Source of the DNA: a virus
Strand: one strand, 5' to 3'
IMG/VR virus record: IMGVR_UViG_3300050120_000051
Coordinates: 1-31,485 of that record
DNA: 31,485 nt
A program made the position numbers and the translations under genes. The notes under the pieces are model-generated. The model did not search any database. It was not told where the DNA came from and worked only from the letters and a program-made list of their open reading frames with translations. How positions within the stretch are numbered: position 1 is the first letter of the stretch; each line of letters starts with the position of its first letter. Positions 3,727 to 13,754 of this stretch are shown piece after piece.

Positions 3727-3920
3727 GCAACGCAATAGGCTGGGCAGTCTGGCATCCGACGCGCGGCTTTATGGTGCCGCATCTTTACGAGGGCGCGGTT
3801 GCCTGGGCTGATCTCGATGGCGCCGTGCGCCTGGTCCGCGAGCTTAACGCCGACGATGGCACCAACAATCGCAACGGCTGGCGCGCGGTCAAGGTCGAAC
3901 TCGTCAGGGTGCCGGCATGA
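3723..3920 (+). CDS. Unknown 65-aa protein with TTG start
   Basis: The gene appears to start at TTG 3723, overlapping the upstream stop as TTGA, and is preceded by a strong Shine-Dalgarno GGAGG (3711-3715) seven bases before it. No ATG lies near that site in this frame. The product reads WAVWHPTRGFMVPHLYEGAVAWADLDGAVRLVREL and then a short KVELVRVP ending. Short proteins of this kind, annotating a value and then a helix, are common in phage early operons and have no known function. It is coupled by ATGA to the methyltransferase that follows. Confidence 0.65.
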   Translation: MSNAIGWAVWHPTRGFMVPHLYEGAVAWADLDGAVRLVRELNADDGTNNRNGWRAVKVELVRVPA

Positions 3921-5662
3921 CCGAGCTGATCAAATACGACGCGGCCTGTCGGATGCTGGCTGAGGCCGTCGCGGTCGACGAGGTGCAGGATATCCGCGGC
4001 AAGGCCGAAATGATGCGCGCCTATGCCCGGCAGGCCAAGGACCGCGCTCTGGAAATCTCCGCGGCGCAGATCCGGTTTCGGGCCGAGCGGCGCCTGGGCG
4101 AACTCATCATCGCTCAAAAGGAGACCGTTGGTCTGGCGCAGGGGCGCCGCACCGACTTAGTACCCGCCGGGGACGAAGTGAGCGACGGCAAGGTTTCGCT
4201 CGAGCAGGCCGGGATTGACCGCAAGCTATCATCGCGCGCCCAGCGCATGGCCGATATCCCGACCGAACGGTTCGAGCAGCTGCTTTCCCTGCACCGCGAG
4301 GAGGTGCTCGAGGGCAATAACAAGGTTTCCGTGGATCTGATGCGGACGTCGGCGGAGGCCGAGGGCCGCGAAAAGCGCCGCAATCTGGCGCAGGCGCTGT
4401 CGGATGCCACGGCTGACTTGCCGATCGGGCGGATGTTTCCCTGCGCTTATCTCGACCCGCCCTGGCATCGCAAGCAGGGCGTCACCGACCGTTCTTACGA
4501 AAACCATTACCCGACGATGACCTGGGACGAGATCATCGCCCTTTGCGAGCGCGTCGCCAAGATCCTGTTGCCGGATAATTGGGTGTTCCTGTGGATCCCG
4601 CGGGCGCATCTGCTGGCGCTGCATCCGGTCGATATGGAATTCGCCGACGACGATGGCCGCGTCATCACCCGCAAGGTCAAAATGCCGCTGTCCTGGGCGG
4701 TCGCGCGGGCGCTCGGCTGCGACAATTACTCGACCTGCTACATCTGGACCAAGACCGACGAAGAGCACCCGAACGATCAAGGCGGCGGCGTGCTGGTGTT
4801 CGACCAGGACGAAATCCTGCTGCAATTCAAGCGCGGCCGTGGCCTGCCGAAACCGGCGACCGACGAAAAATTCAAATCCAATCATCGCGAACGCAAGCGC
4901 GAGCATTCCCGCAAGCCCGACCACTATCGCGACATGATCCGGACCATGACCGGCGGCGTGCCCGTGCTAGAGCTGTTCGCTCGCGTCGACGCGGAGCATC
5001 CGTTGCCGCCGGATTGGGAGGCCTGGGGCAATCAGGCGGTCGTGGCGGTCGAGATCGCCGCAGCGGAAATCGACGCATCCGCCGCATTCGTTGCACCCAT
5101 TGCCGAAAATGCCTGCGCCGCAGCGGTTTCTGAAATCGCCGCAGCGCCCGAAATCGCCGCACCCATTGAGCCGCTGCCGCAGCTTTGCGAATTCGACGAG
5201 CTGCGCGCGTTCTCCGATTTCTGTTTTCCCCGGCGGATGGAGATCCTTACCGCGATCGCGCCGGCCTATATCGAGCGCGGGCTAGCCTATTCGATCAAGA
5301 TCGGCGGCAGCGATTGGGGCCTGACCGAGGCGGGCTGGAAACGGTTCTACGCGATCGAAAAGGAACGCAGGGCGCTGGCGCCTGCGCTCGATCAGGAGAT
5401 CGTCGACGGCGCGCTGCAATGCCGGCTACCGTTGTCCGATCATGAAATCGAAATGCAGCGCGCGCTGCATTCGATCGACGCCGGCGAGCTCGTCGACAGC
5501 GAAATCGCCAGCCACCTCGAAAGCGAGGGATTTGTCCGCGTCACCACGACGCGGCTTGTCGTCGCCGATGAGGGCCGCGCCTGGCTCGCCGGCCTGGTCG
5601 ATCTTCCGATAGCCGAGCTGCCCGCGCTCGACCTGCCGCTATTCCTGGCGGCGCGCGCATGA
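3917..5662 (+). CDS. MT-A70 family DNA adenine-N6 methyltransferase with long C-terminal extension
   Basis: The 581-aa protein has three parts. Residues 1-165 are a helical N-terminal domain often found before phage MT-A70 enzymes (KAEMMRAYARQAKDRALEISAAQIRFRAERRLGE). The catalytic domain, about 170-385, carries the signature DPPW at 180-183 and the family's closing motifs SRKPDHYRDMI, LELFAR and WEAWGNQ. It would transfer methyl from S-adenosylmethionine to adenine N6, probably in DNA, to evade restriction or mark phage DNA. After residue 385 comes an Ala/Glu/Ile-rich linker built from repeats of E-I-A-A-A, then about 150 residues of unrecognised helical sequence. This C-terminal part is unusual for phage MT-A70 proteins, which normally end shortly after the WGNQ motif. 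Confidence 0.88.
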   Translation: MTELIKYDAACRMLAEAVAVDEVQDIRGKAEMMRAYARQAKDRALEISAAQIRFRAERRLGELIIAQKETVGLAQGRRTDLVPAGDEVSDGKVSLEQAGIDRKLSSRAQRMADIPTERFEQLLSLHREEVLEGNNKVSVDLMRTSAEAEGREKRRNLAQALSDATADLPIGRMFPCAYLDPPWHRKQGVTDRSYENHYPTMTWDEIIALCERVAKILLPDNWVFLWIPRAHLLALHPVDMEFADDDGRVITRKVKMPLSWAVARALGCDNYSTCYIWTKTDEEHPNDQGGGVLVFDQDEILLQFKRGRGLPKPATDEKFKSNHRERKREHSRKPDHYRDMIRTMTGGVPVLELFARVDAEHPLPPDWEAWGNQAVVAVEIAAAEIDASAAFVAPIAENACAAAVSEIAAAPEIAAPIEPLPQLCEFDELRAFSDFCFPRRMEILTAIAPAYIERGLAYSIKIGGSDWGLTEAGWKRFYAIEKERRALAPALDQEIVDGALQCRLPLSDHEIEMQRALHSIDAGELVDSEIASHLESEGFVRVTTTRLVVADEGRAWLAGLVDLPIAELPALDLPLFLAARA

Positions 5663-7410: not shown

Positions 7411-8679
7411 ATGTCTGCAAATGACCGCGCCAAGCGGCGGCCACGACGCATCGCTGCGGATGAGGCACACTCCTGGGCGCGCAATCTGCGTCTCGGCAAC
7501 ATTCAAGCCAAGCTGGTTTTGAGCATGCTGTCGCTGTACGTCAACGGCGACGGCATCTGCTGGGTCAGCGCCGGCGCGCTGGCCGAGGATTGCGAGCTGT
7601 CGGATGATACTGTGCGCCGGCGCCTGGCCTGGCTCGACCAGATCGGAGCGGTCGCCAGGGTGCCGCAATGGATCGACGAAAACGGCAGCCGCAACGGCGA
7701 TGGCAAGGGTCGCCGCACCACCGATAAAATCAAGCTGCTGTACGACGCCGACGCCGATGATATCGAGGCGCGCGCCGCCGGCGAAACCGTGCCAGAAAAG
7801 CCAGCGATTTCAACCGAGATTAGCCTCCTCCAGCAGCGGAGGCTAAATGAGCCGGAGGGTCCGGCCGGCACCGGGTTAGCCTCCGCCCAGCATCCGCAGT
7901 GTGGCGGAGGCCTAATCTCTGAACCTGAACCTGAACCTGAATCTCCCCAAACCCCTCCGGGGTCGAAAGAGAGCGACGTTCAGTTTGAAAGCGAACCGGA
8001 GGACTTCGGGCCAGCATGGCAATCCTGGCGCGGTCACGAGATTATGCGGCGCGATCTCGCTCTCGCCGAGTTCCGGCTGCTGTCGATCGAAAAGCAGCGG
8101 CTCTGCAGGGCAGCGATCCCATATTTCAACGCGCTGCAGGCCACGTTCAAGCGCGACACGGTCACTAATTTTCATATCTGGATCCGCCAAAAGGGGTTTG
8201 ACGAGTTTCCGACCGCAACTCTCGGAGCTGCGCCTGGCGCTGTTCCCGATCGCCGCTGGGTTTGCGGCGACGAACTCGCCGGACTCATGGTCGCGCTGCG
8301 GATGGCCGATCGGTCGACGCCTGCGCTGGCTGACCATCCCGAGTTTGGTCGCGGTTACTGGACCACAGCGGGGCCGCGTCCGGATCTCGCCGCGATGGCA
8401 AAATTCCAAGGCGATGATCCCTTGAGCTGGCCGATCGCCGATCGCGGCACAGGCCCGTGTGCTGCCTGGCGCGATCGATTGAAGCTCTGGCTTGGCGGCG
8501 AGGTCGAACCGAGGAAGGTGTTTCTCGAGCCGTTCGATTCCAAGGTTCACGGTCTGCCGCACAACCATCCCGATTTCAAATTCCGCCGTTCGTCGGCTGG
8601 TCTGCCGGCGCCTGCGCCGTGGCCGCCGCATCGCGACGGAACGTGGCCTGAAAATTCCGGCGACAGCGAGGTGGCATGA
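7411..8679 (+). CDS. Phage replication protein with N-terminal winged helix
   Basis: The 422-aa protein begins with RNLRLGNIQAKLVLSMLSLYVN, then a helix-turn-helix with ISxxxLA-like spacing (WVSAGALAEDCELSDDTVRRRL, then AWLDQIGAVAR), the arrangement found in phage replication initiators of the lambda O/DnaD type. A low-complexity acidic linker around residues 165-200 contains a Glu-Pro repeat, followed by a helical domain (EIMRRDLALAEFRLL, YFNALQ, NFHIWIRQKG) and an unrecognised C-terminal part. ATG 7411 is preferred to TTG 7372 because the added 13 residues look non-coding. It probably recruits host replication factors to the phage origin; an origin may lie within the linker-coding DNA as in lambda O. 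Confidence 0.65.
   Translation: MSANDRAKRRPRRIAADEAHSWARNLRLGNIQAKLVLSMLSLYVNGDGICWVSAGALAEDCELSDDTVRRRLAWLDQIGAVARVPQWIDENGSRNGDGKGRRTTDKIKLLYDADADDIEARAAGETVPEKPAISTEISLLQQRRLNEPEGPAGTGLASAQHPQCGGGLISEPEPEPESPQTPPGSKESDVQFESEPEDFGPAWQSWRGHEIMRRDLALAEFRLLSIEKQRLCRAAIPYFNALQATFKRDTVTNFHIWIRQKGFDEFPTATLGAAPGAVPDRRWVCGDELAGLMVALRMADRSTPALADHPEFGRGYWTTAGPRPDLAAMAKFQGDDPLSWPIADRGTGPCAAWRDRLKLWLGGEVEPRKVFLEPFDSKVHGLPHNHPDFKFRRSSAGLPAPAPWPPHRDGTWPENSGDSEVA
7921..7944 (+). repeat. Hexanucleotide tandem repeat coding Glu-Pro
   Basis: Three copies of GAACCT plus a fourth copy with one change (GAATCT) encode the Glu-Pro run in the linker of the replication protein. The repeat is in frame, so copy-number change would only alter linker length. 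Phage O-type proteins often carry origin iterons in this linker region, but these 6-bp units are too short to call an origin. Confidence 0.7.
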
Positions 8680-9287
8680 TGATTCAGCAGCGCGATTATT
8701 TCAGGGGCGAAATCGTCGGCACTGTGGATCTGATGCGGATTTATGGACCGCTCGATGTTCCGGTTTCTCCGCGTCGCTGGTATATGCTGCAGGTCTACGC
8801 GCATCGCGAATTCAAGGTGATGAAGGCGTTTTGCCAACGCAACATCAGCGCCTGGTTGCCTCTGATCAAGACGTCTCAGCAGGTTACGCGCTATCGTCGC
8901 AGCTATGAATACCTGTCACAGCAAAACGTGACTTTGCCTTTGATTTCGGGGGTTATTCTGATTCCTGATTTCGAGGCCAACGGCGGTCGATGGCAAACGG
9001 TCGAAGACATCATCGGCATCTATCACATGGACCAATGCGTGCCGTTTCTGACGCCGGCGATGCTCAATGACCTTCGCAACATCGAGGCGATCGGCAATAC
9101 GCCGAAAAGCAAGCGCGCACACAAATTCGAGATTGGCGAACTTGTCAGGGTCACCAGCGGTCCGTTTCGGTCGTTCTGCGGTCGCGTCGAGCGATTTGAC
9201 TCCAAGGGACGACTCAGCGTAGGCGTGGACATCTTCTCGCGCATCACTCCGGCGGAATTGTCGGAAGATGACATCGAAGCGGTCTAG
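8676..9287 (+). CDS. NusG-family transcription elongation/antitermination protein
   Basis: The 203-aa protein has the two-domain layout of NusG. The NGN domain spans about residues 33-130 (RRWYMLQVYAHREFKVMKAF, then AWLPLIKTS, RYRRSYEYL, LPLISGVILIP, IIGIYH). The KOW domain follows at about 150-203 (FEIGELVRVTSGPFRSFCGRVERF, SVGVDIFSRITPAELSEDDI). NusG proteins bind RNA polymerase across the cleft; KOW contacts Rho, the ribosome or other factors. The N-terminal 32 residues are an extra. It is the last early gene, ATGA-coupled to the replication gene, and is followed by two terminators and the late genes, which suggests a specialised RfaH- or Q-like role. Confidence 0.8.
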   Translation: MMIQQRDYFRGEIVGTVDLMRIYGPLDVPVSPRRWYMLQVYAHREFKVMKAFCQRNISAWLPLIKTSQQVTRYRRSYEYLSQQNVTLPLISGVILIPDFEANGGRWQTVEDIIGIYHMDQCVPFLTPAMLNDLRNIEAIGNTPKSKRAHKFEIGELVRVTSGPFRSFCGRVERFDSKGRLSVGVDIFSRITPAELSEDDIEAV

Positions 9288-9388
9288 CGGCCAAGGTCGC
9301 GTAGACGTTTCGAACGAAGGCGGACAAGGCCTTCGGCGCATCGGTCGGCTCGATCATCGAGTCAACCGTGTGAGTGCGGCGTGAAGCA

Positions 9389-9415
9389 AGCCCTGCAGCA
9401 ATGCGGGGCTTTTTT
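9389..9415 (+). terminator. Intrinsic terminator after the nusG-like gene
   Basis: The stem pairs AGCCCTGCA (9389-9397) with TGCGGGGCT (9402-9410): nine base pairs with one G-T wobble. It is closed by a GCAA loop and followed by a T-run to 9415. This is a textbook Rho-independent terminator, placed about 100 bp after the nusG-like stop. Confidence 0.85.
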
Positions 9416-9460
9416 AATGCCATAGGTTACTCGCCGCTATTGACTGCAGCGGCTTGCTGT

Positions 9461-9481
9461 GAAGTTCGCAAACGAACCTTC
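9461..9481 (+). other. Hairpin between the two terminators
   Basis: GTTCG (9464-9468) and CGAAC (9473-9477) form a perfect stem around a CAAA loop. Outer GAAG/CTTC pairing extends the stem to 9461-9481 with a single bulged C. There is no U-tract, so it is not a terminator. It could be part of an antitermination or recognition element. Confidence 0.5.
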
Positions 9482-9529
9482 ATGACCTGGGAGGCCGATA
9501 TGTAACCGGCATCGCAATGGACGCATCCG

Positions 9530-9559
9530 AAGCCCGGCACGGCAACGTGTCGGGCTTTT
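9530..9559 (+). terminator. Second intrinsic terminator, just before the late genes
   Basis: AAGCCCGGCAC (9530-9540) pairs with GTGTCGGGCTT (9547-9557): 11 base pairs with one G-T wobble, around a GGCAAC loop and followed by TT. The U-tract is short (TTTT, 9556-9559), so it is weaker than the first. It ends only 12 bp before the HNH gene start, so late transcription must read through it or start after it. Confidence 0.7.
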
Positions 9560-9571
9560 GCGTTCATAGGT

Positions 9572-9961
9572 ATGTCGGCGCGCGAACGATCCAACGCTGC
9601 CCATGACCAGCACCGAGGCAACTCCCGCGATCGAGGTTACGACGCGCAATGGGACCGTGCTTCGTTGCTGTTCAAGCGATCTCATCCGTTGTGCCTGGGA
9701 TGCGAAGCGCTGGGCAGGGTGACGGCAACTGCGGTGACCGACCACGTGGTTCCGCATAAGGGCGATGCCGCAAGGTTCTGGGATCAGTCGCTCTGGCAGC
9801 CGGCCTGTCGCTGGCATCACGACGTCGTCAAGCAGCGCCTCGAGTTGATGTTCGAACGTGGAGCGCTGCTGCTCGCCGACCTGTGGCTGGACAGCGCCGT
9901 CGCTGTCGCGCTGTCGAAGCGGCTTGGCTCATCAGTCGGCGCCGATGGCTGGTCGGTCTGA
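9572..9961 (+). CDS. HNH endonuclease of the packaging module
   Basis: The 129-aa protein has the standard packaging-type HNH layout: RGYDAQWDRASLLFKRSHPLCLGC, then VTDHVVPHKGD (the first His pair) and FWDQSLWQPACRWHHDVVKQRLE (final His). The CxxC here is C-x-x-C from LCLGC, paired with the ACRWHH end, a zinc-supported fold. Phage HNH proteins encoded next to terminase, such as HK97 gp74, assist cos cleavage during packaging. The ATG at 9572 has only a weak ribosome binding sequence (AGGT directly before it), and an upstream stop at 9503-9505 rules out a longer product with a better start. Confidence 0.88.
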   Translation: MSARERSNAAHDQHRGNSRDRGYDAQWDRASLLFKRSHPLCLGCEALGRVTATAVTDHVVPHKGDAARFWDQSLWQPACRWHHDVVKQRLELMFERGALLLADLWLDSAVAVALSKRLGSSVGADGWSV

Positions 9962-10064
9962 GCTGCCGGGTGGGGGTGTGCAATTCCTTCGGGCCTGGTC
10001 GCTCCGGACCGGCGCCAAACAATCACACGCAAAAAGTTCGAATTAAATACAAAAAGCCACTTCC
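9962..10064 (+). other. Candidate cos region
   Basis: These 103 bp separate the HNH gene from the small terminase gene, the usual place for cos in phages with this gene order. The segment begins with a G-rich run (CCGGGTGGGGGTG, about 9966-9978), has a GC-rich dyad around TCCGGACCGGCGCC, and turns suddenly AT-rich (AAAAAGTTCGAATTAAATAC) before terS. G-rich tract followed by a GACCGGCG-type core is a layout I recall from related prophages. The cleavage position and overhang cannot be read from sequence. Confidence 0.35.
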
Positions 10065-10532
10065 ATGCGCGGTGCAAAGCCCAAACTCAAAAACGTCATT
10101 CCGATGCGCCCGGATGACGTTGAGGCCGAGCGGCTCCGCAAGAAAGCGACGCGGCGAGCCATCCGGCAGCTGATGCCGCCGGGTCTGACGCCGGACCTGT
10201 CGAAAGAATACCAGCGGGTCGCGAAGATCCTGGCCGATCCGACCGTCGACCGGCTCAAGCCGCGCTACATCGACACCATCATGGAATATTGCCGGGCGAC
10301 GCGGCGGCTGCACTTCTTTCGCGACGCAATGCCGACGCTCAATCTGGAAATCTACCGCGTCAAATCGCGCAACGGCGACCAGGTCAAGAGCCACCCGTAT
10401 GTGGCCCAAATGAACGAAACCTGGCGCCAGTGGCGCTCGCTGGTCGCCATGCTCGGCTTATCGCCGACCGACGAGCGCAATCTGCTACCGGGACAAGGCG
10501 ACCTGTTCGATGAAGCGGAAAAATACTTCTAA
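10065..10532 (+). CDS. terS: Terminase small subunit, P27 family
   Basis: The 155-aa protein matches the P27-type small terminase: GAKPKLKNVIPMRPDD at the N-terminus, PPGLTPDLSKEYQRVAKIL, the helix DTIMEYCRATRRLHFFRDAM, and HPYVAQMNETWRQWRSLVAMLGLSPTDE with a GLSPxxR-like ending. TerS recognises phage DNA near cos and delivers it to TerL. It follows the HNH gene and candidate cos. Its 3' end overlaps the ParB-methyltransferase start by 23 nt. A methyltransferase gene between TerS and TerL is a variation on the usual direct TerS-TerL order. Confidence 0.85.
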   Translation: MRGAKPKLKNVIPMRPDDVEAERLRKKATRRAIRQLMPPGLTPDLSKEYQRVAKILADPTVDRLKPRYIDTIMEYCRATRRLHFFRDAMPTLNLEIYRVKSRNGDQVKSHPYVAQMNETWRQWRSLVAMLGLSPTDERNLLPGQGDLFDEAEKYF

Positions 10533-11913
10533 GGCCGCCGCGGCGCCCGTTGCGCCGCCGGCCGTCGACGTTGCCCAGGAGCCGACGCGGCTTGTGTTGC
10601 GCACCCGCGAGGAAACCTGGCCGATCGGCCGCATCAAGCCTTACGAGCGCAATGCCCGGCTGCATCCGCAGGGCCAGATCGACCAAATCCGCGCCTCTTA
10701 CCGCGAATTCGGCGAGGTGCAGCGGGTGGTGGTCGACGAGTCCGGCGAATTGATCGCCGGCCACGGCCGCCACGAGGCGCTGCGGCAGGAAAACGTCGCC
10801 GATGTCCGCGTGGTGGTGGCGATCGGCTGGACCGACGAGCAGAAGCGCCGGTTCCGCCTGATCGACAACCAGCTCGGGCTCAACTCGACCTGGGACGAGA
10901 AGCTGCTCAAGGCCGAGGTTCTGGAATTGAACGGCCTGGGCGTTGATGTCGGGCTGCTCGGCTTCGAACCGGGCCGCATCGCTGGCTTGCTCCACGAGGC
11001 GCCAGCGGGGCTCACCGATCCCGACGATGCGCCGCCGGCGCCGGTTGTGCCCACCTCCGCCCGCGGCGACGTCTGGCTTCTGGGGCGCCACCGGCTGCTA
11101 TGCGGCGATAGCACCAACCCGGCCGACGCCACCCGCGTCCTGGCCGGCGCCAAGCCGCATCTGATGGTCACGGATCCGCCCTATGGCGTGAAGTATGATG
11201 CCGGCTGGCGCGTCCGCGCCGGCCACGGCAGCGATGGCCAGGCGGTCGGCGTAGTCCTCAATGACGATCGCGCCGATTGGCGCGAGGCCTGGGCGCTGTT
11301 TCCCGGCGACGTTGCCTACATCTGGCACGCCGGCAGCCACTCCGGCGCCGTAGCAAATTCGCTCGAGGCCTGCCGGTTCAAAATCAGGGCCCAGATCATC
11401 TGGGTCAAGCAGCGCCACGTGTTCGGCCGCGGCGATTATCATTTTCAGCACGAGCCGGCGTTCTATGCCGTCAAGGACGACGCCGACGAGCAATGGCATT
11501 TCGTGCCCGAGCACGAGGTGGCGTCCTACACGGTTCGCGACGGCAAGCCGGGCCACTACGAGGGCGGCCGCAAGCAGTCGACCGTCTGGAACATCGAGCA
11601 CATGAAATCCGAAACCGGCCACTCGACCCAGAAGCCGGTCGAATGCATGAAGCGGCCGATCGAAAACAATTCGCAGCCGGGCGAAACGATTTACGAGCCG
11701 TTCTCCGGCTCCGGGACCACGATCATTGCCGCCGAAATCACCGGCCGTAATTGCTTCGCGATCGAACTAAACCCGCTCTATGTCGATATCGACGTGGTGC
11801 GCTGGCAAAATTTCACCGGCCTTGCGGCCACGCTCGAGGGCGACGGGCCGAACCTTCGCCGAAATCGTCGCCGAACGCGCCGCCGAGATCGAGGCCGCGT
11901 TAGATGCCGATGA
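10510..11913 (+). CDS. ParB-domain DNA methyltransferase (beta class), C-terminus frameshifted
   Basis: Residues 37-125 form a ParB/Srx-like domain (PYERNARLHPQGQIDQIRAS, GELIAGHGRHEAL). Residues 185-440 form an N6-adenine/N4-cytosine methyltransferase with DPPY at 222-225 before FSGSGTT at 398-404, the beta-class order, plus GHSTQKPVE. It probably methylates phage DNA before packaging. After Pro447 the frame turns into an Arg-rich tail (RRNRRRTRRR). Skipping one A near 11851-11852 restores TFAEIVAERAAEIEAAL and a TAA at 11924-11926, the ending expected for the family and with normal codon use. The annotated frame ends at TGA 11911-11913, overlapping a possible terL start. Confidence 0.85.
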   Translation: MKRKNTSKAAAAPVAPPAVDVAQEPTRLVLRTREETWPIGRIKPYERNARLHPQGQIDQIRASYREFGEVQRVVVDESGELIAGHGRHEALRQENVADVRVVVAIGWTDEQKRRFRLIDNQLGLNSTWDEKLLKAEVLELNGLGVDVGLLGFEPGRIAGLLHEAPAGLTDPDDAPPAPVVPTSARGDVWLLGRHRLLCGDSTNPADATRVLAGAKPHLMVTDPPYGVKYDAGWRVRAGHGSDGQAVGVVLNDDRADWREAWALFPGDVAYIWHAGSHSGAVANSLEACRFKIRAQIIWVKQRHVFGRGDYHFQHEPAFYAVKDDADEQWHFVPEHEVASYTVRDGKPGHYEGGRKQSTVWNIEHMKSETGHSTQKPVECMKRPIENNSQPGETIYEPFSGSGTTIIAAEITGRNCFAIELNPLYVDIDVVRWQNFTGLAATLEGDGPNLRRNRRRTRRRDRGRVRCR

Positions 11914-13754
11914 GCGGGTCGCCTAATGCCGGCGGCACCGCGTCGGACCAGGTCGACGAGCCCGAGGCCGACGAGGTTACCGCCTACGCCAGCGCGGTCG
12001 TGGCCGGCGATATCGTGGCCGGGCCGCTGGTCCGCGCCGCTTGCGCGCGGCATCTGCAGGATCTGCTGACCGGCGCCGAGCGCGGCCTCTCGTTCAACGT
12101 CGCCGCCGCGCAACGGGCCATCGGTTTTTTCGCGACCGTGCTCACCGTCGAGGTCGAGGGCCGCGACGAATACGACGAGATTGTTACCTGGTCGATTCCC
12201 TTCGTGCTGCAGCCCTGGCAGGCCTTCATTGTCGGCTCGCTGTTCGGCTGGAAAAACGCGCAAGGGTTTCGCCGCTTTCGCCGCGCCTATGTCGAGATCG
12301 GCAAGGGCAACGGCAAGTCGCCGCTCGCCGCCGGCATCGGCCATTACATGATGCTGTCTTGCGGAAAAATCCGCGCCGAAATTTATTCCGCGGCGACCGA
12401 CAAGGATCAGGCCGCCATTCTGTTTCGCGACGCGGTCGCGATGTACGAGCGCTCGCCGGCGTTGCGCCGGCGCCTCAAACCGAAGGGCGCTAATCCGGTC
12501 ACCGAGCTGCTGACCAAAAAGCCGGGCGTTAATTCGTTCTTCAAGACCATTGCCTCGGAAAAGCGCGGCAAGTCCGGCATTCGTCCCTATTGCGCGCTAA
12601 TCGACGAGGTCCACGAGCATCCGGACAATTCCGTTATCGAAATGATGCGGGCCGGAACCAAGGGCAATCAGGAAGCCCTGCTGTTCGAGATCACCAACTC
12701 CGGCTTCGACAAAAAAACCGTATGCGGCCAGGAGCATGATTATTCCGCGCAGATCCTGACCGGCACGGCCGAGAGCGACGCCTGGTTTGCTTACATCGCA
12801 TGTCTGGATGAGGCCGACGATCCGTTCGAGGACGAGGCGTGCTGGCCGAAGGCCAACCCGAACCTTGGCGTCTCGATCCAGCTGCCATTCATCCGCGAGC
12901 AGGTACAGGAAGCCCGCGGCATGCCGTCGAAGGATGGCCTGGTCCGCCGGCTGCACTTCTGCCAATGGACCGAAAGCGAAAACTCGGCGATCCCGCGCAA
13001 GACCTGGATGGCCTGCGAGGGCGCAGTCGATCCCGACAAGCTGACCGCCGATGGCTTTCCCTGTTTCGGTGGCCTCGATATCTCCCGCACCCGGGATTTG
13101 ACCGCGTTCAGTCTGACCTGGTTGCTGGACGCGACCAAGGACCAGTGGCGTTTCGCGCAGAAGACCTGGTTTTGGACGCCAAAAACTACGCTTCGCGAGC
13201 GCGCCAAGTCCGACCGCGCGCCGTATGAGCTTTGGGTGGAGCAAGGGTTTCTCGAGGCCGTACCTGGTCCGCGCATCAAATATTCCTGGCTCGCCGACGC
13301 GCTGCTTGTGCTGAACGCGCGTTTCCATCCGGTCATGATCGGCGGCGATCAATACGGCCTCGAGCAGCTGCAGGAGGCGCTCGGTGCGGTCGGCGGCACG
13401 CTGCCGATCGAGGTGCATCCACAGGGCTTTCAGCGTCGGGTTATGGGTGAACGCTCCGGCGATCACACCAACGAAACCGGCGCCGACGACATCGTGCTGT
13501 GGATGCCGGATTCCATCAACAAGTTCGAGGCCGCGCTGCTCGAGCAGCGGATCACAATCGATCCGAATCCCGTCATGCGCATGTGCGCCGGCGGCGTGGT
13601 CTATGAACAGAACCGAACAGGGCACCGCATGTTTGCCAAGGACAAGGCCACCCAGCGCATCGACGGCATGGTGTCCGGGGCCATGAGCATCGGCATTGCC
13701 ACAACTTCAAAAACTAGCCTGATCACAGGCGCTGACGCTTTGACGGTGATCTGA
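11904..13754 (+). CDS. terL: Terminase large subunit
   Basis: The 616-aa protein is the packaging motor and nuclease. The ATPase domain has a Walker A, GKGNGKS, at residues 133-139 and a Walker B with catalytic Glu, ALIDEVHEH, at about 231-239. The RNase H-like nuclease domain begins at GGLDISRTRDLTAF, with further acidic motifs at GGDQYGLEQL and GADDIVLWM. Length is normal for HK97/P27-type TerL. ATG 11904 has a GAGG nine bases upstream; ATG 11910 is an alternative that would overlap the methyltransferase stop as ATGA. Its own stop shares one base with the portal start (TGATG). Confidence 0.93.
   Translation: MPMSGSPNAGGTASDQVDEPEADEVTAYASAVVAGDIVAGPLVRAACARHLQDLLTGAERGLSFNVAAAQRAIGFFATVLTVEVEGRDEYDEIVTWSIPFVLQPWQAFIVGSLFGWKNAQGFRRFRRAYVEIGKGNGKSPLAAGIGHYMMLSCGKIRAEIYSAATDKDQAAILFRDAVAMYERSPALRRRLKPKGANPVTELLTKKPGVNSFFKTIASEKRGKSGIRPYCALIDEVHEHPDNSVIEMMRAGTKGNQEALLFEITNSGFDKKTVCGQEHDYSAQILTGTAESDAWFAYIACLDEADDPFEDEACWPKANPNLGVSIQLPFIREQVQEARGMPSKDGLVRRLHFCQWTESENSAIPRKTWMACEGAVDPDKLTADGFPCFGGLDISRTRDLTAFSLTWLLDATKDQWRFAQKTWFWTPKTTLRERAKSDRAPYELWVEQGFLEAVPGPRIKYSWLADALLVLNARFHPVMIGGDQYGLEQLQEALGAVGGTLPIEVHPQGFQRRVMGERSGDHTNETGADDIVLWMPDSINKFEAALLEQRITIDPNPVMRMCAGGVVYEQNRTGHRMFAKDKATQRIDGMVSGAMSIGIATTSKTSLITGADALTVI

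Follow-up and report, generated by a model that had tools for sequence, protein, structure and literature searches.

What turns on the late genes of a phage in which a NusG-like protein is encoded directly before terminators and the packaging genes? The question was raised by an IMG/VR record of a soil-bacterium phage, 31,485 b in length, the whole of which we refer to as the window, and in which ORFs were called mechanically. The gene at issue is separated by a 284-bp spacer (9288–9571) from the gene for an HNH endonuclease (Table 1). Because its position as the last gene before terminators and packaging genes is kept in dozens of distantly related phages, the gene is probably a late-gene switch, and the reading that we prefer, based on sequence comparison and structure prediction, is that its product likely serves as the late-gene processive antiterminator of the phage.

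Table 1 Features of the NusG-paralogue gene, the spacer that follows it and the adjoining late block, in window coordinates
Feature	Position	Strand	Remarks
NusG-paralogue gene	8676–9287	+	203 aa; NGN and KOW-type β-barrel; N-terminal extension of ~30 aa
Hairpin a (CGAAGGC / GCCTTCG), followed by GCGCA	9315–9335	+	From fold and counterpart stems
Hairpin b, with palindrome CGGTCGGCTCGAT..ATCGAGTCAACCG	9342–9368	+	Palindrome at 9349–9361 inside
T1, intrinsic terminator, strong U-tract	9388–9417	+	Stem 9388–9411, then TTTTTT
TAGG box (CATAGG)	9421–9426	+	9 nt past T1 stem; anchors weak 11.5-bit match to RNA model R1
Hairpin after TAGG box (GCCGCT..AGCGGC)	9433–9453	+	Position equivalent to HP1 of relatives
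Second hairpin, GAAGTTCG CAAA CGAACCTTC	9461–9481	+	From fold
Shine-Dalgarno-like GGGAGG and start-stop mini-ORF ATG-TAA (9500–9505)	9489–9505	+	Similar units elsewhere
T2, intrinsic terminator, weak tail	9530–9561	+	Stem 9530–9557, tail TTTTGC
Second TAGG box (CATAGG)	9565–9570	+	After T2, directly before HNH start codon
HNH endonuclease, first gene of late/packaging block	9572–9961	+	PHROG 2323; same slot in relatives
TerS	starts 10065		After HNH gene
ParB/DNA methyltransferase fusion	10510–11913		Between terminase subunit genes
Terminase large subunit TerL	11904–13754	+	PF03354/PF20441; anchor of synteny test

The ORF of the NusG paralogue starts with ATG and overlaps the preceding replication-type ORF by 4 nt. 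Its product was matched by the Pfam NusG family PF02357 (29.6 bits against a cut-off of 22.2) and by PHROG 6386, 'transcription antiterminator' (59 bits), and an AlphaFold2 model for which 54 relatives of the protein served as input (pLDDT 89, pTM 0.65) placed an NGN domain at about residues 35–141 and a KOW-type β-barrel at about residues 155–203. The top PDB matches returned by Foldseek for this model were NusG proteins, which, along with the Pfam match, confirms the two-domain NGN/KOW architecture that the original prediction had assigned to the last gene before the spacer. The score against the NusG equivalog model TIGR00922 fell far below its cut-off (54.5 against 135.7), as expected for a paralogue, and in a phylogenetic tree three host NusG proteins formed a clade of their own, apart from the phage paralogue, with a support of 1.0. 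The protein belongs to the NusG/Spt5 superfamily and is distinct from the host housekeeping NusG. A family-wide motif, Y-x-x-G-x-x-V, sits in its N-terminal extension.

Compared with the C-terminal domain (CTD) of E. coli NusG over 54 columns, the CTD of the phage protein gave a TM-score of 0.81 and 52% identity; it is therefore possible that the protein works with Rho or S10 as NusG does, which counts against the antiterminator reading. RfaH, which uses ops DNA and a fold-switching CTD, differs from the window protein, whose CTD was predicted by AlphaFold2 as a β-barrel, with no RfaH-type α-helical CTD, and the RfaH equivalog model TIGR01955 scored 24.7 bits against a cut-off of 144.5. Both the identity to the E. 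coli domain and the lack of a predicted helical CTD would suit a different role, in which the paralogue is a mimic or competitor of NusG (by binding Rho or S10, shutting off the host or helping terminators), the terminators merely split early from late units, and another factor activates the late genes. We regard this role as improbable, because the position beside terminators and late operon is fixed across divergent phages, as described below, and because no other late activator was recognised among the window proteins scanned, many early ORFs having no assigned function.

Folding of the RNA of 9285–9571 gave −137 kcal/mol, against −106 ± 5 in shuffles (z −5.94). Two intrinsic terminators had been predicted here, and while T1 proved strong, being the sole spacer terminator found in a strict scan, T2 is present in weaker form and was detected with relaxed rules only, which also return 9433–9453. 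Given its weak tail, T2 may be leaky; a near-identical copy of it, followed by CATAGG, occurs in locus L003. The additional hairpins predicted before T1 and between the terminators are both present, as is the palindrome within hairpin b. Counterpart stems of hairpin a in 22 relatives have a mean length of 5.7 bp, against 3.9 ± 0.26 in shuffles, and those of hairpin b are weaker (5.6 against 4.9 ± 0.25). The suggestion that one of the hairpins is the recognition element of the protein gained no support: hairpin a reaches significance in 22 loci, but counterparts of hairpins a and b are present in part of the family only and are missing in L149, L178 and L010, which leaves a universal recognition site in the 3′ UTR hairpins unsupported, and the TAGG box tracks the gene better. 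At window 9315–9368 and in 22 relatives, we also observed a multi-hairpin set at the 3′ end of nusG, arranged around a GCGCA-like joint and with stems longer than in shuffles; this arrangement could be autoregulatory. Further downstream, covariation was seen in the HP1 copies of the relatives. Start-stop units were found in 7 of 81 spacers (the window, L003, L022, L116, L143, L166 and L197), against 1.5 expected from shuffles, and in L003, L022, L143 and L197 a Shine-Dalgarno sequence with a start-stop codon pair lies between the terminators, as in the window.

Past the spacer the late block begins, as predicted, with the correction that its first gene encodes the HNH endonuclease and that the packaging genes proper, for TerS and TerL, come later. 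Separately from the methyltransferase fusion in this block, an MT-A70-type methyltransferase is encoded at window 3917–5662. A check for a late promoter agreed with the original prediction in that no sigma-70-like promoter was found at window 8600–10600, in a scan that may miss non-canonical or activator-dependent promoters. At a match of 9/12, a sigma-70 promoter was found in none of 62 conserved spacer elements of NusG-linked relatives, compared with 5 of 69 copies unlinked to NusG.

We then compared the locus with its relatives. Two annotated Bradyrhizobium phages show the same order of replication-type gene, NusG-like gene (annotated otherwise), spacer, HNH gene and terminase. A scan of IMG/VR, whose records are possibly fragments, with a profile built from a three-row alignment gave 19 loci with a NusG-like gene, and when 391 genomes of one family were searched with a profile, 20 NusG loci turned up in 19 of them. 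In all 27 records where both genes were found, the two Bradyrhizobium phages among them, TerL is encoded on the same strand, 1,049–1,849 nt downstream of the NusG gene. Two or more terminator-like sites lie within 420 nt past the NusG stop at 54 of 80 distinct loci, whereas dinucleotide shuffling, repeated ten times, gave 4–11 such loci and coding sequence gave 6 of 80; the loci are mutually related, so that p-values are inflated and enrichment statistics overstate independence, and clear terminators are missing at some NusG loci. Gene and terminators persist in close relatives, as the original prediction had required: the three nearest by late genes (L242/L201, L243/L194 and L244/L202; TerL 77–80% and TerS about 76% identical) all retain the NusG gene and terminators, and so do the three nearest by NusG (L045, 63%; L099, 57%; L058, 52%), whose anatomy is as in the window.

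A search with the window TerL, in which NusG was not used, returned seven loci at 64–80% identity, in four of which the slot is occupied by a NusG-like gene, terminators and TAGG. L239, one of the four, had been missed by the NusG search. At L239:5392–6000 it encodes a very divergent NusG-like protein (Pfam NusG, 35 bits) whose NGN domain has no clear KOW part beside it, and its spacer contains terminators, a TAGG box and then a match at 57 bits to the small RNA alpha-r8 described below. The remaining three loci are counter-examples: L240 (TerL 66%) has the HNH gene and TerS but neither NusG nor a spacer element, and the upstream regions of L238 (70%) and L241 (64%) are unrelated.

The terminators in these spacers are marked by a short sequence. 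TAGG occurs 5–24 nt past the stem of 72 of 159 terminators in NusG spacers, compared with a mean of 15 (maximum 24) in shuffled tails, and the counterparts of T1 in relatives sit directly before the box. Where no alpha-r8 sequence follows, TAGG was still found past 23 of 100 spacer terminators, against 9 of 434 terminator-like sites elsewhere in the same loci (Fisher p ~1e-11, ignoring relatedness). The window itself carries the box twice, and its tandem unit of T1, CATAGG, hairpins, T2 and CATAGG resembles extra units in other relatives. Judged by these counts, the TAGG box is, among the spacer features examined, the best tracker of the NusG gene that is independent of the sRNA.

In many relatives the spacer has a longer order, consisting of T1, the box YATAGG(G/T)TGTGCGG, a hairpin, CCTCCTTGGGCGTTTCCTCCCTAGACTT and a terminator. 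A DNA scan for 16 bases of this conserved segment, independent of NusG, returned at least 120 IMG/VR stretches. Among the matches listed, with an iterated NusG profile, 57 NusG–element pairs lay within about 1 kb, NusG being upstream on the same strand in every case and usually 80–480 nt away. A new structured RNA element was considered for this segment and rejected, as Rfam assigns it to RF00519 (suhB/MmgR, the alpha-r8 sRNA), whose gathering score was reached in the relatives with 42–68 bits (13 loci tested, including L045, L099, L058 and L239; examples of copies are L010:10702–10800, L045:5532–5612 and L239:6290–6372). Its 5′ hairpin covaries: both sides of the stem had changed in 42 cells, where shuffles gave 12.4 ± 4.9, and the score was 0.256, with no more than 0.109 reached on sliding. 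When genomes of the order were scanned with a covariance model of the element, 301 of 397 proved to contain chromosomal alpha-r8 genes of the host, and the best 30 of these genes have the hairpin and body of the phage copies, lack a phage-type NusG and are preceded by an apparent promoter such as TTGACC-N17-CATATT. The phage copies are nearly identical to those of hosts but lack the host-type promoter. The RF00519 assignment and the absence of a 9/12 sigma-70 match from all 62 elements together indicate that the spacers of most relatives consist largely of a promoterless alpha-r8 copy, whose terminator forms the final barrier ahead of the late genes.

The window spacer, in contrast to those of the relatives, gave no match to RF00519, a relaxed threshold included. 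With filters off, RNA model R1 scored 11.5 bits at 9421–9503, which is insignificant window-wide, and a classification of the window as a relative by this model was rejected. The window has lost the alpha-r8 RNA body that most relatives carry. Also rejected was a general role of alpha-r8 as a phage late leader, as phage copies without NusG occur in mixed contexts. An ops-like sequence, GCGGTAGC, is absent from window spacer 9288–9571; in the relatives it forms part of the alpha-r8 5′ hairpin, is found in host sRNA genes as well and varies with pairing kept. An RfaH/ops reading of this sequence was rejected because the stem covaries and because the same hairpin heads host alpha-r8 genes without a phage-type NusG nearby.

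In another explanation, the spacer is mainly a place where sRNA or cargo genes insert, each with terminators of its own, and the adjacency of nusG reflects modular genome order only. In L004, L012, L013 and L019, the stretch from T1 to the late genes does contain inserted cargo genes, some on the opposite strand and sometimes in place of the sRNA body, and the resemblance of the copies to host chromosomal genes, like the mixed contexts of other phage alpha-r8 copies, would fit such a site. We nevertheless hold this explanation to be very improbable, given that TAGG follows terminators even where the sRNA is missing, as also in the window, and that all 57 pairs among the matches listed have one order and one strand.

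A more serious competitor, and the main one, is a Q-like arrangement, in which a late promoter would lie between T1 and T2 with the TAGG box inside an activator-dependent −10 element, and polymerase that starts there would be modified by the paralogue and thereby pass T2. The box does read TA...T at the positions critical for a −10 (T 98%, A 100%, T 82%), an upstream T1 would insulate a promoter at the box, and lambda pR′-6S-tR′ and StxS share this geometry (PMC12101431). However, a conserved −35 is absent at every spacing and none of the 62 elements reached 9/12, initiation 7 nt past the box would place the start within the 5′ arm of HP1, a hairpin with conserved pairing, the clear promoter of host alpha-r8 genes sits at a different spacing and is missing from phage copies, and the box repeats after several terminators in one spacer. 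We therefore consider the arrangement unlikely, retaining TAGG as a sigma-70 −10 as a rival reading. Like lambda Q and StxS, the window places an early regulator gene beside a short leader that ends in a terminator and precedes the late operon, with the regulator directly upstream of the terminators, as in Q-type systems; it differs from them in the protein family and in that a late promoter just upstream of the leader was not recognised in the sigma-70-like scan.

We return to the preferred reading, late antitermination by the NusG paralogue. It is built on the fold of the protein, its place as the last gene before HNH, TerS and TerL, the terminators after the gene in the window and in most relatives, the TAGG that follows terminators and a spacer in which no sigma-70 promoter is recognisable. 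The link of the gene to the late operon, as originally predicted, is upheld by synteny and by the terminators of relatives, and from these we infer antitermination itself. Early transcription from upstream would cross the replication gene and nusG and would mostly halt at T1 and T2. Once enough of the paralogue had been made, its NGN domain would load on host RNA polymerase crossing the spacer, guided by the TAGG box, as non-template strand or nascent RNA, and/or by a spacer hairpin, and the loaded paralogue would suppress termination at T1, T2 and beyond, allowing the late operon to be transcribed. In most relatives, the second stop would be the terminator of the promoterless alpha-r8 (suhB/MmgR) copy, and a polymerase that passes the first stop and not the second would release a short leader RNA that resembles alpha-r8 and has its parallel in lambda 6S or StxS. 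Such a terminated leader might act in trans, by analogy with StxS. A tentative and rather doubtful extension of this model is that a widespread alphaproteobacterial phage family has its late operon run by a NusG paralogue recruited by TAGG just past each terminator, with the promoterless host alpha-r8 copy between the stops, so that failed antitermination would release a trans-acting sRNA signalling the lysogenic state.

RfaH and LoaP are NusG paralogues documented as activators of long operons. LoaP of Bacillus velezensis binds a leader hairpin, which is all that it needs, and promotes readthrough of the leader terminator (PMC12691694). The likeness to the window lies in a NusG paralogue and in leader anatomy alone, the long operon being preceded in both by a hairpin and then an intrinsic terminator. 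LoaP differs in targeting antibiotic operons, whereas the target in the window would be phage late genes, and a hairpin is known as the protein site for LoaP only. Closer in setting is Sinorhizobium phage phiLM21, whose phiLM21_p034 is annotated as 'NusG-like transcription anti-terminator'; phiLM21-like prophages all carry this gene (PMC12429752). As in the window, the phiLM21 gene follows replication genes and precedes HNH and terminase, but phiLM21_p034 has no detectable BLASTP similarity to the window protein, only 87 nt separate it from the HNH gene, obvious terminators lie past HNH, and no alpha-r8 element was found.

Since phiLM21_p034 is annotated in the same slot, the gene and its position are not new, and the original view of a poorly described system applies in narrower form: a NusG-based mechanism of late control, the TAGG box and the link to alpha-r8 were not found described in the open-access literature, a scope outside which most subscription papers fall. 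In the reviews consulted, no phage late-gene system based on a NusG paralogue is described. Among transcription factor families, NusG is, to our knowledge, alone in being conserved universally, and the operon-specific paralogues known from it serve mainly surface, secretion and antibiotic operons. A member of this family that divergent phages have kept next to tandem terminators and terminase genes would offer a compact, testable system for the gain of target specificity, and a role as terminated leaders of late operons is suggested as the reason for alpha-r8 copies in prophages.

NusG-like genes were also seen in other settings. In L042 and L115, they lie 6–8 kb after an alpha-r8 element and have no unit of T1, TAGG and alpha-r8 behind them. 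The Bradyrhizobium genomes L183–L185 carry a second chromosomal NusG paralogue, which is neither the housekeeping NusG nor a member of the phage family.
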